A stretch of DNA of 64,000 nt from Cytophagaceae bacterium (GTDB lineage: Bacteria > Bacteroidota > Bacteroidia > Cytophagales > Cytophagaceae): NCBI GenBank assembly GCA_025454925.1, contig JALONM010000002.1:62001-126000 (forward strand). The letters are read 5' to 3'. The notes below the pieces were generated by a model, which ran no database searches, was not told the origin of the DNA, and saw nothing but the letters and a program-made list of their open reading frames with translations. The translations under genes were made by a program, and so were the position numbers. Below, piece after piece: positions 5,656-53,286 of the stretch (its first letter is position 1; each line of letters opens with the position of its first letter).

Positions 5656-6558
5656 ATGGAGAAAGTACTCGTAACCGGTGGAACAGGTTTAGTAGGAAGC
5701 AGTCTGATTCCTTTTTTGAAAAGCAAAGGCTATGAACCCTATGTATTAAGCAGGAAGCCTTCCAAAAGTGCCACCACACTGTATTGGAATCCTTCTCGAA
5801 AACATATCGACCTTTCGGCACTGCAGAAAATGGATTACATCATTCATTTGGCTGGTTCGAATGTGTTTGAAAAAAAATGGAGTGAAGAAAATAAAAAAGA
5901 AATTCTTGAAAGCCGTGTAGAAGGGGCGCGTTTGTTATCCATGGCCATGAAAGAACATGGTATAAAACCCAAAGCCTTTATCACGGCCTCTGGCGTAGCC
6001 TATTACGGCACCGATACCGGCGATCAGTGGATCAACGAAGAGGCGCCTAAAGGCCCAGGATTTTTGTCGGAAGTAGTAGAGGCCTGGGAAAAAGAAGCCG
6101 ATACCATTGCCGCGCAAGGAGTGCGCACTGTAAAATTCAGAATTGGCTTGGTGCTTAGCAGCGAAGGCGGGGCATTGGAAAAAATGAAAACGCCCGCCTT
6201 GATGGGAGCTTCTTCTCCGCTTGGTTCGGGTGATCAGTACATGCCCTGGATAGATGTATTGGACCTTTGCGCCATGATGGAATTTGGACTTAAAAATCCG
6301 GTGCAAGGAGTCTTCAATGCAGTAGCTCCCAATCCGGTAACCAATAAAGAATTTACAAAGTTGTTGGCACGTACCCTTCGCCGGCCTGCCTTTTTACCCG
6401 CTGTGCCCGCTTTCGTGCTCAACCTCATGTTCGGAAAAGAAAAGGCCGCTTTGTTGTTGGGAGGCAATCGCATTTCTCCCCAAAAAATTCAACAACAAGG
6501 ATTTCAATTTGAGTATCCTGAACTATCTGCATCCATGGCACGTTTATTGAAAAAGTAG
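5656..6558 (+). CDS. TIGR01777-type NAD-dependent epimerase family protein (YfcH-like)
   Basis: 300 residues with an N-terminal Rossmann motif GGTGLVG at residues 8-14, a middle segment FITASGVAYYG (short-chain dehydrogenase-like Ser and Tyr), and the C-terminal DUF1731-type segment with FGKEKAALLLGG and FQFEYPEL. This is the YfcH/SDR39U1 family, whose substrate is unknown. It begins directly after ilvA, so the two are probably co-transcribed; the link to isoleucine synthesis is not established. Confidence 0.88.
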   Translation: MEKVLVTGGTGLVGSSLIPFLKSKGYEPYVLSRKPSKSATTLYWNPSRKHIDLSALQKMDYIIHLAGSNVFEKKWSEENKKEILESRVEGARLLSMAMKEHGIKPKAFITASGVAYYGTDTGDQWINEEAPKGPGFLSEVVEAWEKEADTIAAQGVRTVKFRIGLVLSSEGGALEKMKTPALMGASSPLGSGDQYMPWIDVLDLCAMMEFGLKNPVQGVFNAVAPNPVTNKEFTKLLARTLRRPAFLPAVPAFVLNLMFGKEKAALLLGGNRISPQKIQQQGFQFEYPELSASMARLLKK

Positions 6559-6591
6559 TAATAGCCAACTATTTACATTAAAATAGCGTAT

Positions 6592-7443
6592 ATGGGGAAA
6601 CGGGTGGACGACTTAAATTTTTTTGAGATGAATGATTTTAAAGAACCCAAGGCTAATCTCGGTGCAGATTCTGGCCTTGAATCAAAATTGGAGAAAGAAA
6701 ATCTCTCCTACAAACAAAAAACAATTGACCTGTCTTCGGAAGAAGAGAAAAAAATACGTCAAGCTTTTAAACAACGTGATTGGAATGAAATAAAAAGTGC
6801 CGACTCCTGGGCAATTTTTAAAGTCATGGCCGAATTTGTAGAAGGATTCGAAAAATTATCTAAAATCGGACCTTGTGTATCCATTTTTGGATCGGCAAGA
6901 ACGCTGCCTAATAATCCTTATTACGAAATGGCCGTTGAAATTGCAGCCAAGCTCGTGCGTCATGGATATGGAGTTATTACCGGGGGTGGTCCTGGTATTA
7001 TGGAAGCTGGTAACAAAGGAGCTTTCTTACAGGGTGGTAAGTCGGTAGGCTTAAACATCATATTGCCTTTTGAACAAACCCACAATCACTACATCGATAA
7101 AGACAAAGTGTTAAACTTTGAACACTTCTTCGTACGAAAAGTAATGTTCATTAAATACTCACAAGGATTTATTGTAATGCCTGGTGGATTTGGAACGCTC
7201 GATGAATTGTTTGAAGCATTAACCCTGATACAAACTAAAAAAATCGGAAGGTTCCCCATTGTACTTGTAGGGAAATCATACTGGCAAGGGCTTTTCGACT
7301 GGATTAAAATGACATTAATTGGTCAGGAAAAAAATGCAAATCCCGAAGATTTGGATTTAATTTCTGTCGTTGATAATGCCTCCGAAGCGGTGCAGGTAAT
7401 AGATGATTTCTATTCAAAATATTTATTGCAACCAAACTTTTAA
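6592..7443 (+). CDS. LOG-family protein (TIGR00730, cytokinin riboside 5'-monophosphate phosphoribohydrolase type)
   Basis: 283 residues. The nucleotide-binding GGGPGIME is at residues 131-138 and the family signature PGGFGTLDE at 197-205. Characterised members cleave nucleoside 5'-monophosphates to base plus ribose 5-phosphate. About 90 residues precede the core domain, including a lysine/glutamate-rich segment; such N-terminal extensions occur in Bacteroidota members. Separated from the previous gene by 33 bases and followed by a clear terminator. Confidence 0.88.
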   Translation: MGKRVDDLNFFEMNDFKEPKANLGADSGLESKLEKENLSYKQKTIDLSSEEEKKIRQAFKQRDWNEIKSADSWAIFKVMAEFVEGFEKLSKIGPCVSIFGSARTLPNNPYYEMAVEIAAKLVRHGYGVITGGGPGIMEAGNKGAFLQGGKSVGLNIILPFEQTHNHYIDKDKVLNFEHFFVRKVMFIKYSQGFIVMPGGFGTLDELFEALTLIQTKKIGRFPIVLVGKSYWQGLFDWIKMTLIGQEKNANPEDLDLISVVDNASEAVQVIDDFYSKYLLQPNF

Positions 7444-50041: not shown

Positions 50042-50722
50042 TTATTCACCGGTTTCAAATTTATAACCGATGCCTTTAATGGTAGCGATGTATTTCTCTC
50101 CGATCTTCTCTCTGATTTTGCGGATATGCACATCTACGGTTCTTGAAACAACATATACGTCAGAACCCCACACACGGCGCAGGATATCGTCGCGGTTAAA
50201 AATTTTATTGGGGTTTTGACAGAGGAAAAACAAAAGTTCAAATTCCTTGCGTGCCAGATTTATTTTTTTCCCTGCTACCGATACGGTGTAACTCTGTTTG
50301 TCAATTACGAGTTCGTTAAACGAAAGAATGGAACTTTTTTTAATAGTCTCTTTGCGGAAATAACTTGAGAGTCTGCTTACCAGTGCACGGGGTTTGATGG
50401 GCTTTACAATAAAGTCATTTGCCCCCGATTCAAAAGCGGCAATTTCCGAATACTCTTCAGAACGAGCCGTAAGAAATATGATGAAGGTTTCTTTAAGTTC
50501 TTCGGTTTGACGAATTTGACGGCACGTTTCTATGCCATCCATCAACGGCATCATGATGTCTAGCAAAATCAAACGAGGTTGGAATTCCTTTGCCAGACTC
50601 AACGCCATAGGTCCGTTGGTTGCCACCTTAACCTCGTAGCCTTCTTTTTCAAGGATATACTGAAGCATGTCCAGAATATCTTGTTCATCATCTGCAATCA
50701 GGATTCGGTTCTTCTTACTCAC
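50042..50722 (-). CDS. OmpR/PhoB-type response regulator
   Basis: About 226 residues from a GTG at 50722 directly before SKKNRILIADDEQD (the frame extends to 50758 with an implausible leader). Receiver domain with the phosphoacceptor in LILLDIMMPLMDG and the lysine in VKPIKP; a C-terminal winged helix with NKIFNRDDILRRVWG, VVSRTVDVHIRKIREKIG and GIGYKF. No histidine kinase is immediately adjacent on the same transcript, but the FixL-like kinase lies two genes upstream in the same orientation. A gap of 172 bases separates it from the receiver-CRP fusion. Confidence 0.9.
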   Translation of the reverse strand: MSKKNRILIADDEQDILDMLQYILEKEGYEVKVATNGPMALSLAKEFQPRLILLDIMMPLMDGIETCRQIRQTEELKETFIIFLTARSEEYSEIAAFESGANDFIVKPIKPRALVSRLSSYFRKETIKKSSILSFNELVIDKQSYTVSVAGKKINLARKEFELLFFLCQNPNKIFNRDDILRRVWGSDVYVVSRTVDVHIRKIREKIGEKYIATIKGIGYKFETGE

Positions 50723-50894
50723 GTGTAACCAGGTATTAAGCTGGTCAAAAGTACACAAGAGGTATTGTTAAATAATTACGCCAATGTTAACTGTTTGTTA
50801 AGAGCAGAGAGCGTTTGATCATGCCTTCCTGCACAATACCGCTTTCTTCAACAGGCGGACAAAGCTCTGCCTGCCGGGAAACGATGCAGCTAGT

Positions 50895-51953
50895 TTAATT
50901 GCGCATGTTACGCAGTTTGGTTTCGTTGAGGAGCGTTATTTGGCTTCCTTGAATTTCAATCAGTCCTTCTTCTTTAAAGTCTGAAATGGTACGTATTACA
51001 GTTTCTTTGGAGGCTCCTGTAATCGAGGCAAGGTCTTCCCTTGAAACAGGCATCACCACTTTTTCATTTACCTTGCGGTAATTTTCTGCCAACATGAGTA
51101 ACGATTCCGAGACCCTTTTGCGCACGCTGTTGTATGCGAGTTTAATCAGCCGGTCTTCATTGGAACGAAGATCGCTGGAAAGCATTTTGATGAATTTTTC
51201 TGCAATGTCTTTGTTGCTGTACAATACCGCGAAAAACTCTTGCTTTGGAACCACACAGATCTCTGTGTCTTCCATAGCCATGGCAGACTCGGTATACGTA
51301 GATTCTTCTAATAAATTGATATAGCCAATGAAGTCTCCGTTTTTGTGAAGTCCAACAATATACTCTCGTCCGTCTTCATTGGTTTTATATGTTTTTACTT
51401 TGCCTGATACAATAAAAAAAAGTGAATTTGCCATGTTCCCTTCTGAGTACAAAACTTGCTTTTTTTTGTACCGGCTGGTTTTGCGTTTGTCGGCGATAAG
51501 ATGCTCCAGCTCTTTTACGCCCCTGGCTTCAACAGCAACTTGTTGAATGTTGTCGAGCGTGGTTTCGTTTTGCTTTCGAATTAGTTCGTTTTTACGCAAG
51601 CGAATTTCAACAGCATCCAGAAGCTCTACATCATCAAAGGGTTTGGTGATATAATCGTCTGCACCCAGGTTCATTCCTTTGCGCATATCTGCCTTTTCCG
51701 TTTTAGCAGTCAGGAAAATAAAAGGAATCAAAGAGGTTTCCGGATGTTTACTTAAAACATGCAATACGCCAAAGCCGTCCAGTTCGGGCATCATGACGTC
51801 GCAAATAATTAAGTCCGGCTTTTCTTGTTTGGCCAACTCCACGCCCTCTTTGCCATTGGATGCAGCAATAACTTCGTAGTCGGAAAGTTCCAGGATTTCT
51901 GCAATATTTTCTCTTACTTCTAAGGTGTCTTCTATGACAAGAATTTTTTTCAT
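50895..51953 (-). CDS. Response-regulator receiver fused to CRP/FNR transcription factor
   Basis: 352 residues. Receiver domain (1-120) with acidic pocket, phosphoacceptor in LIICDVMMPELDG and lysine in ITKPFDD; a linker; a cyclic-nucleotide-binding-like domain (about 165-260) with KKKQVLYSEGN, LFFIVSGKVK and DFIGYINLL; and a CRP-type helix-turn-helix (about 300-340) with PVSREDLASITGASKETVIR. The recognition helix carries the E...R pair of CRP/FNR. There is no N-terminal FNR iron-sulphur cysteine cluster. It starts 13 bases after the FixL-like kinase, so the two are one operon; the fusion joins the FixJ-type receiver to a FixK-type output. Confidence 0.92.
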   Translation of the reverse strand: MKKILVIEDTLEVRENIAEILELSDYEVIAASNGKEGVELAKQEKPDLIICDVMMPELDGFGVLHVLSKHPETSLIPFIFLTAKTEKADMRKGMNLGADDYITKPFDDVELLDAVEIRLRKNELIRKQNETTLDNIQQVAVEARGVKELEHLIADKRKTSRYKKKQVLYSEGNMANSLFFIVSGKVKTYKTNEDGREYIVGLHKNGDFIGYINLLEESTYTESAMAMEDTEICVVPKQEFFAVLYSNKDIAEKFIKMLSSDLRSNEDRLIKLAYNSVRKRVSESLLMLAENYRKVNEKVVMPVSREDLASITGASKETVIRTISDFKEEGLIEIQGSQITLLNETKLRNMRN

Positions 51954-51966
51954 GCGCCTTGCGGTT

Positions 51967-53139
51967 TTATTCTACATGTGCAGGAAGGGGAATCCAGACA
52001 AAGAAGGTAGTTCCTTTGCCTGAATAACTTTCAAAAGAAATTTCACCTTTCAGCAAGTCAATATATTTTTTAACGATGTTCAATCCAAGTCCAGTGCCCT
52101 GGATGTTCGAGGCATTGTGTGCCCGGAAAAACCGGTTGAATACATGGCTCTGTTCATCTTCCGGAATACCGATGCCCTCGTCTTGTATTTGAATTTTCAA
52201 TGCCTCATTCTCACATTCAACCTGGAAATAAATTTTCTTGCCATCTTCCGAATATTTAATGGCATTGGAAAGTAGGTTGATGCAGATATTCTTAATGAGG
52301 TTTTTGTCCAGAAAAACCAAGTGATTGCCGGAAGGGAAACTTGTAATTAATTCTTGTTTTTCTTTTAGCACCGACACCATTTCTTCCTGAATTTCATCAA
52401 GTAAGTTTTCCAGTTCCAATTCGCTAGGATGGTTGTGAATCTGTCCTTCTTCCAGCCTGCTAAGCGAAAGGAAATCGTTTAAGATGCCTGTCAGGTTGCT
52501 TACCGAGGATTTGATCCGGTTGATGTGCTTGTCGCGCTTGTCCTGATCTTTTTCTGAAACATATTTGGCAATCAAGGAGGCGGAAGAAAGAATGGTGCTG
52601 AGTGGCGTGCGGAACTCATGGGAGGCCATGGTGACAAATCGCGACTTTAACTCATTGAGTTCTTTTTCCTTTTCCAGTGCCGCTTTCATTTGTCTGATTT
52701 CCGAAAGGTCATGGACTATGCCGGTAAAAATCAGCTTTTCATTCAAGTGGACTTCGCTGATGCTAAGTAAAAAAGGAAAGGTGCTGCCATCCTTGCGCTT
52801 TCCGATCAACTCCCTTCCTTTGCCAATGATATTGGCCTTACCGGTTTTCAGGTAGTTGTCTACGTAGGTATTGTGCCGGCTGCGGTCCGGATCAGGCATC
52901 AGCACTGAAATGTTTTTTCCGACCAGCTCATCTTCCGTAAATCCGAAAATACGATTTACAGCTGGATTGGCAGATTCAATAATTCCACGGGTGTCAATGG
53001 TGATGATGCCATCCACTGCGTTGTCTATGATGGCTTGTAACCGAAGTTCAAGTTCCGACAGAGAATTGGCTTTTATGGGCATTTCTGTAGAAAATTTTTC
53101 CTTCGTAATATTACTAATTTTATGGAATTCCTTAGGCAT
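51967..53139 (-). CDS. FixL-like PAS histidine kinase, predicted haem oxygen sensor
   Basis: About 390 residues from ATG 53139 (ATG 53082 and a leader up to 53196 are alternatives). No membrane segment. The PAS domain matches Bradyrhizobium FixL closely: LMPDPDRSRHNTY, then IIGKGRELIGKRKDG and FTGIVHDLSE. The histidine of SRHNTY corresponds to the haem-ligand His200 and the arginine of GKGR, 20 residues later, to the distal Arg220; position 214 is Asn instead of His. A HisKA domain with ASHEFRTPL and a HATPase with NAIKYSEDGK, DEGIGIPEDE and GTGLGLNIVKKY follow. FixL turns off when oxygen binds haem; that this protein is a haem sensor is a strong inference, not shown. Confidence 0.9.
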   Translation of the reverse strand: MPKEFHKISNITKEKFSTEMPIKANSLSELELRLQAIIDNAVDGIITIDTRGIIESANPAVNRIFGFTEDELVGKNISVLMPDPDRSRHNTYVDNYLKTGKANIIGKGRELIGKRKDGSTFPFLLSISEVHLNEKLIFTGIVHDLSEIRQMKAALEKEKELNELKSRFVTMASHEFRTPLSTILSSASLIAKYVSEKDQDKRDKHINRIKSSVSNLTGILNDFLSLSRLEEGQIHNHPSELELENLLDEIQEEMVSVLKEKQELITSFPSGNHLVFLDKNLIKNICINLLSNAIKYSEDGKKIYFQVECENEALKIQIQDEGIGIPEDEQSHVFNRFFRAHNASNIQGTGLGLNIVKKYIDLLKGEISFESYSGKGTTFFVWIPLPAHVE

Positions 53140-53286
53140 CCTATACCACTTACAATCGGTAAAGAACCTATAAATAAGTGGTGTAAAAAATGACATTCGT
53201 CAGTGCCGGACGCACAAGCATGTTCTGCTTTATTGCCTGGCCAGGGTATACGGGTAAAACTTATGTCTAAGCGCTTAATTGTAAGC

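Follow-up and report, generated by a model that had tools for sequence, protein, structure and literature searches.

Two neighbouring genes in the window, i.e., the whole 64-kb stretch of DNA from a Cytophagaceae bacterium analyzed here, raise the question of whether a FixL-like sensor kinase and a receiver fused to a CRP/FNR-type DNA-binding module could together form an oxygen-responsive circuit shorter than that of rhizobia. In rhizobia, the FixL cascade ends on an activator of the CRP/FNR family, which acts on fixNOQP (cbb3 oxidase) via the TTGAT-N4-ATCAA anaerobox (PMC7888657). Control of the cbb3 oxidase in aerobic Bacteroidota is little described in the literature that we searched. Taken together, the evidence presented below makes it likely that the pair is an autoregulated two-component oxygen switch, whose FNR-type fusion acts on operators in front of cbb3/hemN genes, universal stress protein-type (Usp) genes and its own operon.

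A soluble kinase and a receiver-CRP/FNR fusion in tandem

The sensor histidine kinase gene extends over positions 51967-53196 of the minus strand (409 aa as listed, from open reading frame call and domain search), and encodes a FixL-like PAS domain (residues 52-166 of the 409-aa frame, positions 52699-53043; Pfam PAS_9 and PAS), a HisKA domain (residues 184-251, 52444-52647) with the phospho-acceptor His193 within a SHEFRTP motif that is invariant in the kinase alignment, and a HATPase_c catalytic domain (residues 297-405, 51982-52308). The kinase probably starts at the methionine at 53079 (MPIK..., 370 aa), because the start region of its close relatives L012 and L013 matches there, and the upstream start at 53139 adopted in the preliminary description is probably too far 5'. 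The kinase has a single PAS domain, and reading of the translation by eye revealed no obvious transmembrane-like segment, consistent with the soluble kinase proposed earlier.

The fusion gene (50895-51953, minus strand, 352 aa; open reading frame call, domain search and alignment) follows at exactly the 13-nt spacing originally described, and both frames are real and far above chance in the open reading frame analysis. As had been claimed, a receiver is joined to a CRP/FNR module in one open reading frame: Response_reg (residues 4-116, positions 51606-51944), a cNMP-binding-type effector fold (161-244, 51222-51473) and a CRP-type helix-turn-helix, HTH_Crp (280-349, 50907-51116), all identified by Pfam. 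The receiver carries the phospho-acceptor Asp52 (codon 51798-51800), and Glu8/Asp9, Asp52, Thr82 and Lys104 are invariant in an alignment of 19 fusion sequences. The output, cNMP_binding plus HTH_Crp, thus lacks the LuxR/NarL-type helix-turn-helix of FixJ. In CRP, the arginine that binds the cAMP phosphate lies in the cassette as Arg-Ser at positions 82-83; the stretch of the fusion that seems to correspond, judged by eye in the fusion alignment, reads TESA, without arginine. The N-terminal cysteine cluster (CxxC) of FNR is also absent, and where FNR has its last Cys, the window fusion has one too (EICVVPK), which many relatives lack. The E..R pattern of the recognition helix (GASKETVIRT) and the TGA-N6-TCA operator described below are marks of the FNR/FixK subgroup, from which the corresponding mode of DNA binding is predicted.

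The fusion is followed, after about 136 nt, by a response regulator gene of the PhoB/OmpR type (50042-50758, minus strand), with no directly adjacent kinase besides the FixL-like one.

The FixL-like PAS domain and its putative haem pocket

The closest solved structure to the PAS domain is that of Bradyrhizobium FixL (BjFixL, E 3e-32, 45% identity), followed by RmFixL and then E. coli DosP (E 6e-13). Alignment supports the earlier statement that the haem-ligand histidine and the arginine 20 residues later are kept: His108 (codon 52873-52875, minus strand) corresponds to FixL His200, the proximal haem ligand, and Arg128 (codon 52813-52815, minus strand) to Arg220, the distal arginine that stabilizes the ligand, and Ile215, Leu236 and Ile238 are retained as well. 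Three departures from FixL were found, Arg206 to Asn, His214 to Asn and Ile218 to Lys. FixL Arg206 and His214 contact the haem propionates and are not strictly defining, and both columns are variable among the relatives as well. The lysine (Lys126, codon 52819-52821, minus strand) also occurs in the three nearest relatives, L011-L013, and stands at what we take, by residue count, to be the position of the distal ligand Met95 of DosP; it could change, or itself provide, the distal haem ligand.

In the PAS cluster of FixL and DosP, haem binding is described as being determined primarily by the histidine of helix F-alpha (PMC10468136). The presence of this histidine, together with the distal arginine and the hydrophobic distal residues, characterizes the protein as a FixL-type putative haem-PAS kinase. 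The kinase scored 177.8 bits against the NCBIfam equivalog NF041777 (FixL sensu stricto), below its cut-off of 850. Modelling of the PAS structure, as proposed in the preliminary description, gave the positions of helices and strands and placed His108 within a helix (residues 66-79 of the 370-aa frame), but was uninformative on the haem pocket: AlphaFold2 gave medium-confidence models (pLDDT about 74, and below 50 in the PAS stretch 75-87) and Foldseek matches concerned mostly the kinase core, and neither was retained as evidence for the pocket.

Distribution of the pair and variation of its sensors

When 59 relatives were searched with the fusion, 32 genomes gave matches at E 1e-40, mostly full-length fusions, and a scan of named genomes yielded 589 confirmed relatives, from which 80 loci were kept. 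These loci are spread over the Bacteroidota, and their hosts include Rufibacter, Pontibacter, Dyadobacter, Runella, Emticicia, Reichenbachiella, Phaeodactylibacter and many Bacteroidota metagenome-assembled genomes. Of 110 loci, 103 have a kinase of the same type adjacent to the fusion and on its strand, a proportion that describes the family and not random genomes, the loci having been picked by fusion similarity.

The sensory part of the partner kinases is less uniform. Sixteen carry a FixL-like (Ile215-type) PAS domain, all with both His and Arg. In 49 others the PAS domain is remoter (19-28% identity to FixL) and a histidine is scored at the ligand column, a few of these placements depending on weak alignment, while Met, Arg or Leu are commonest in the Arg220 column. 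The remaining partners have a receiver domain or a different PAS domain as input. The receiver-type loci (Rufibacter, Pontibacter, Adhaeribacter, Rhodocytophaga, L183-L187) have, directly upstream, a separate kinase whose FixL-like PAS input shows one or two His...Arg motifs. In L102, L109 and L111 the FixL-like PAS domain lies inside a longer kinase. It thus mostly stays in the locus even where it has shifted to a separate kinase. The idea that it belongs invariably to the partner kinase was discarded, as receiver, other-PAS and multi-PAS inputs occur.

The arrangement of a receiver-bearing partner with an upstream FixL-like PAS kinase is seen in L039, L041-L046, L055 and others, and about 12 such loci also hold a single receiver of 151 aa (cluster of L039:4051-4503). 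The receiver-type loci look like a longer phosphorelay form of the same circuit.

Replacement of the ligand histidine in close homologs, named in the preliminary description as evidence against haem, was looked for and found once, in L015; the second pair of the same genome (L191) keeps the histidine. Genome G007 contains two kinase-fusion pairs, L190 (G007:C16) and L191 (G007:C6), one with a His-less and the other with a His-bearing kinase, and the loss came via a rearranged PAS stretch.

These sensor data bear on the best of the competing explanations, which we nevertheless regard as improbable: the regulon and phosphorelay would be the same, and the PAS domain would work without haem or oxygen sensing, responding instead to redox state, NO/CO or another small molecule, with the histidine kept by descent. 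The pocket changes (asparagine for Arg206 and His214, lysine for Ile218), the His-less L015 and the non-FixL PAS or receiver inputs of other members would all fit such a sensor, as would the absence of the histidine from 40% of the FixL/DosP PAS cluster, which suggests altered sensory specificity (PMC10468136). Set against this are the strict conservation of His and Arg in the FixL-like PAS partners and the fact that this domain usually remains in loci whose partner kinase has changed; moreover, sensing of NO or CO would normally need haem too. A haem-based oxygen sensor is the reading that we prefer.

Association with cbb3 oxidase and haem synthesis genes

The genes clustering around the 80 named loci encode Usp, CcoNO, CcoP, CcoG, CcoH, a CcoI-type copper ATPase, a DsbD_2/SafE protein, a HemN-type radical SAM protein and HemA, the HemN and CcoI assignments resting on the general Radical_SAM and E1-E2 ATPase Pfam models plus context. 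The Dyadobacter loci L079 and L085 have the gene order ccoP-ccoG-ccoH-safE-hemN-kinase-fusion. At the genome level, ccoNO is present in 28 of 31 genomes with the fusion versus 14 of 28 without it. The pair does not adjoin cbb3 genes in the genome of the window, which carries a ccoNO-ccoP-ccoG-ccoH-safE-hemN operon on its contig C64. A family of 128-aa proteins without Pfam match (L064:7450-7833 and homologs) is encoded near the pair in 22 loci.

A common operator precedes the pair and its neighbors

When all short palindromes in the intergenic DNA of the loci were counted against shuffled sequence, the top ones were TGAC-N4-GTCA (42 versus 1.7 in shuffled sequence) and TGAT-N4-ATCA (86 versus 3.9), i.e., TGA[C/T]N4[A/G]TCA, with the extended form [A/C]TGA[C/T]N4[A/G]TCA[T/G]. 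A test gene by gene, using dinucleotide shuffles and a reversed-pattern control that remained near 0, located this operator upstream of the kinase (42 of 67, 1.9 expected), ccoNO (7 of 7, 0.3 expected), hemA (7 of 7, 0.2 expected), hemN (5 of 7, 0.2 expected), ccoI (8 of 13, 0.7 expected) and Usp genes (30 of 54, 1.3 expected); it also precedes 12 of 23 genes of the 128-aa family. The same test gave no enrichment before operon-internal genes such as ccoP, ccoH or the fusion itself, and no match was found in front of the kinases of L193, L195, L196 and L191.

Among the listed operators less than 60 nt apart (intergenic regions of L039-L118), 37 of 46 pairs are spaced by 22-23 nt, about two helix turns, which suggests dimers arranged in tandem along the same face of the helix.

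In the window, a FixK/FNR-type palindrome, TGACATTCGTCA in plus-strand reading, occupies positions 53191-53202, roughly 115 nt ahead of the probable kinase start, and is the sole match to TGAYNNNNRTCA in the 64 kb (one found, 3.6 expected by chance). Sixty-one operator sites were counted in the same genome, and its regulon was examined among the matches listed: these include a site 255 nt before ccoNO of the C64 operon and another before a Usp gene on contig C84. The CRP-type site prediction suggested in the preliminary description hence returned, among the own-genome matches listed, FixK/FNR-type palindromes before the pair's own operon, ccoNO and a Usp gene.

The operator does not by itself identify its regulator, because it precedes ccoNO in 11 of 14 genomes without the fusion, about as commonly as in those with it (22 of 27); the operator alone was accordingly rejected as proof of control by the fusion.

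Relation of the fusion to cysteine-bearing FNR proteins

When 12 fusion-less ccoNO genomes were searched with the CRP half of the fusion, ten (G021, G024, G026, G032, G035, G038, G044, G048, G051 and G055) were found to encode a CRP-type protein that stands alone (35-39% identity) and has, like FNR, a CxxC near its N-terminus and another Cys further on; no such Cys-FNR was found in G003 and G013. In an alignment, 30 FNR-type relatives shared the CxxC and the later Cys, and their recognition helix was almost identical to the fusion's. The phylogeny of the CRP half recovers the fusions as one clade (99/98) beside the Cys-FNR group, which includes two long-branched proteins of unsure place. Among the matches listed from 106 genomes, 38 have the fusion only, 52 FNR only and 15 both, the fusion being undercounted; a strict either/or of the two regulators was rejected on account of these 15 genomes.

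The search with the CRP half gave no Cys-FNR match in the genome of the window. It did reveal another CRP-type regulator on contig C39 (approximately 6400-7100; L259, L149), with a similar recognition helix (ATESLVR), which is a long-branched neighbor of the FNR group and has no N-terminal CxxC. A perfect TTGATATTCATCAA (TTGAT-N4-ATCAA) stands before its gene.

This C39 protein, with its helix and site, and the frequent operators before ccoNO in fusion-less genomes, are what gives weight to a second alternative, namely that the operators are worked here by another CRP/FNR protein and the fusion controls something else. Together with a different PAS ligand, this is one of the two strongest rivals, and we rate it slightly lower still, as the operator stands before the fusion's own operon, most fusion-less cbb3 genomes hold instead a Cys-FNR with nearly the same helix, and the genome of the window gave no Cys-FNR match, while the C39 protein is without the N-terminal CxxC. 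Control of these operators by the fusion stays the favored assignment. Far less credible is an ordinary two-component pair with coincidental likeness to FixL and FNR operators, whose kinase would mainly serve the PhoB-like regulator downstream on the same strand: that gene falls outside the large conserved neighbor clusters, the conserved unit is kinase plus fusion, and the operator statistics speak against coincidence.

A proposed one-step oxygen circuit

With cbb3/fixGHI-type, hemN and hemA neighbors, and operators before them and the pair, the condensed oxygen circuit envisaged in the preliminary description holds up as a computational proposal; the reading of oxygen as the signal is supported because these neighbors are the target set of rhizobial FixK-type regulators, with FixK/FNR-type operators. 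In the oxygen switch that we favor, falling oxygen would free the cytosolic FixL-type haem-PAS kinase from inhibition, the sign of the response being taken by analogy from FixL, and the freed kinase would phosphorylate the partner's receiver at Asp52. In this state the receiver would switch on the fused FNR-type half, and the active fusion would bind TGA[C/T]N4[A/G]TCA operators both before its own operon and before Usp genes and the operon for cbb3 oxidase and hemN, taking the place of the oxygen-labile Fe-S FNR of related genomes. The outcome would be activation of the cbb3 oxidase and of oxygen-independent haem synthesis at low oxygen.

A broader evolutionary scenario, on which we find the evidence evenly poised, is that a one-step oxygen circuit is spread across the Bacteroidota: a receiver under the command of a FixL-like haem kinase would, in a single event, have taken over from the Fe-S sensing part of an FNR-like ancestor, the operators and the cbb3 regulon would have been kept, and the sensor would later have been split off or exchanged in several lineages. 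For a large part of a phylum, the pair supplies candidates for the regulator, the kinase and the operator. It also sets up a natural experiment in which the chemistry of an Fe-S cluster and that of a haem kinase would act via nearly the same helix, operator and target genes. Why a lineage swaps direct sensing for phosphorylation could be tested in cultured hosts such as Dyadobacter and Pontibacter.

Comparison with known systems

Each part of the kinase-fusion pair belongs to a known kind, while no description of the combination was found: in the literature searched, mainly open-access, no Bacteroidota family was described that links such a fusion to cbb3 genes and a FixL-like kinase, which is weak evidence. 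The fusion resembles response regulators with CRP-type output in its receiver, cNMP-binding fold and Crp helix-turn-helix. The PAS domain is related in sequence to that of DosP, a haem-PAS in the same cluster as FixL (PMC10468136), whose output is c-di-GMP hydrolysis (PMC4263535), unlike the phosphotransfer expected of a kinase of the window type. The two also differ at the distal position, Met95 in DosP and, by residue count, lysine here.

With FNR and FnrN, which carry an oxygen-labile [4Fe-4S] cluster, the fusion has in common a nearly identical recognition helix and operator and the cbb3 target, and differs in lacking the CxxC N-terminus, with an N-terminal receiver as control part instead. 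With the rhizobial FixL-FixJ-FixK and hFixL-FxkR-FixK systems, it shares the FixL-type PAS kinase, the CRP/FNR-family output and the cbb3-type targets. In contrast to these, receiver and CRP/FNR module are united in one protein, without a FixJ/FxkR-to-fixK transcription step; compared with FixL-FixJ-FixK, moreover, the window kinase is soluble with a single PAS domain, the operator is of the extended form given above, and the FNR half groups with Bacteroidota FNR. The original suggestion that the FixJ-to-FixK steps were collapsed into one protein stands as an analogy, but the CRP half groups beside Bacteroidota Cys-FNR. Rhizobial FixK and FnrN both bind TTGAT-N4-ATCAA (PMC7888657), and the one-step circuit, if true, parallels this sharing of one operator set by FixL-FixJ-FixK and FnrN.
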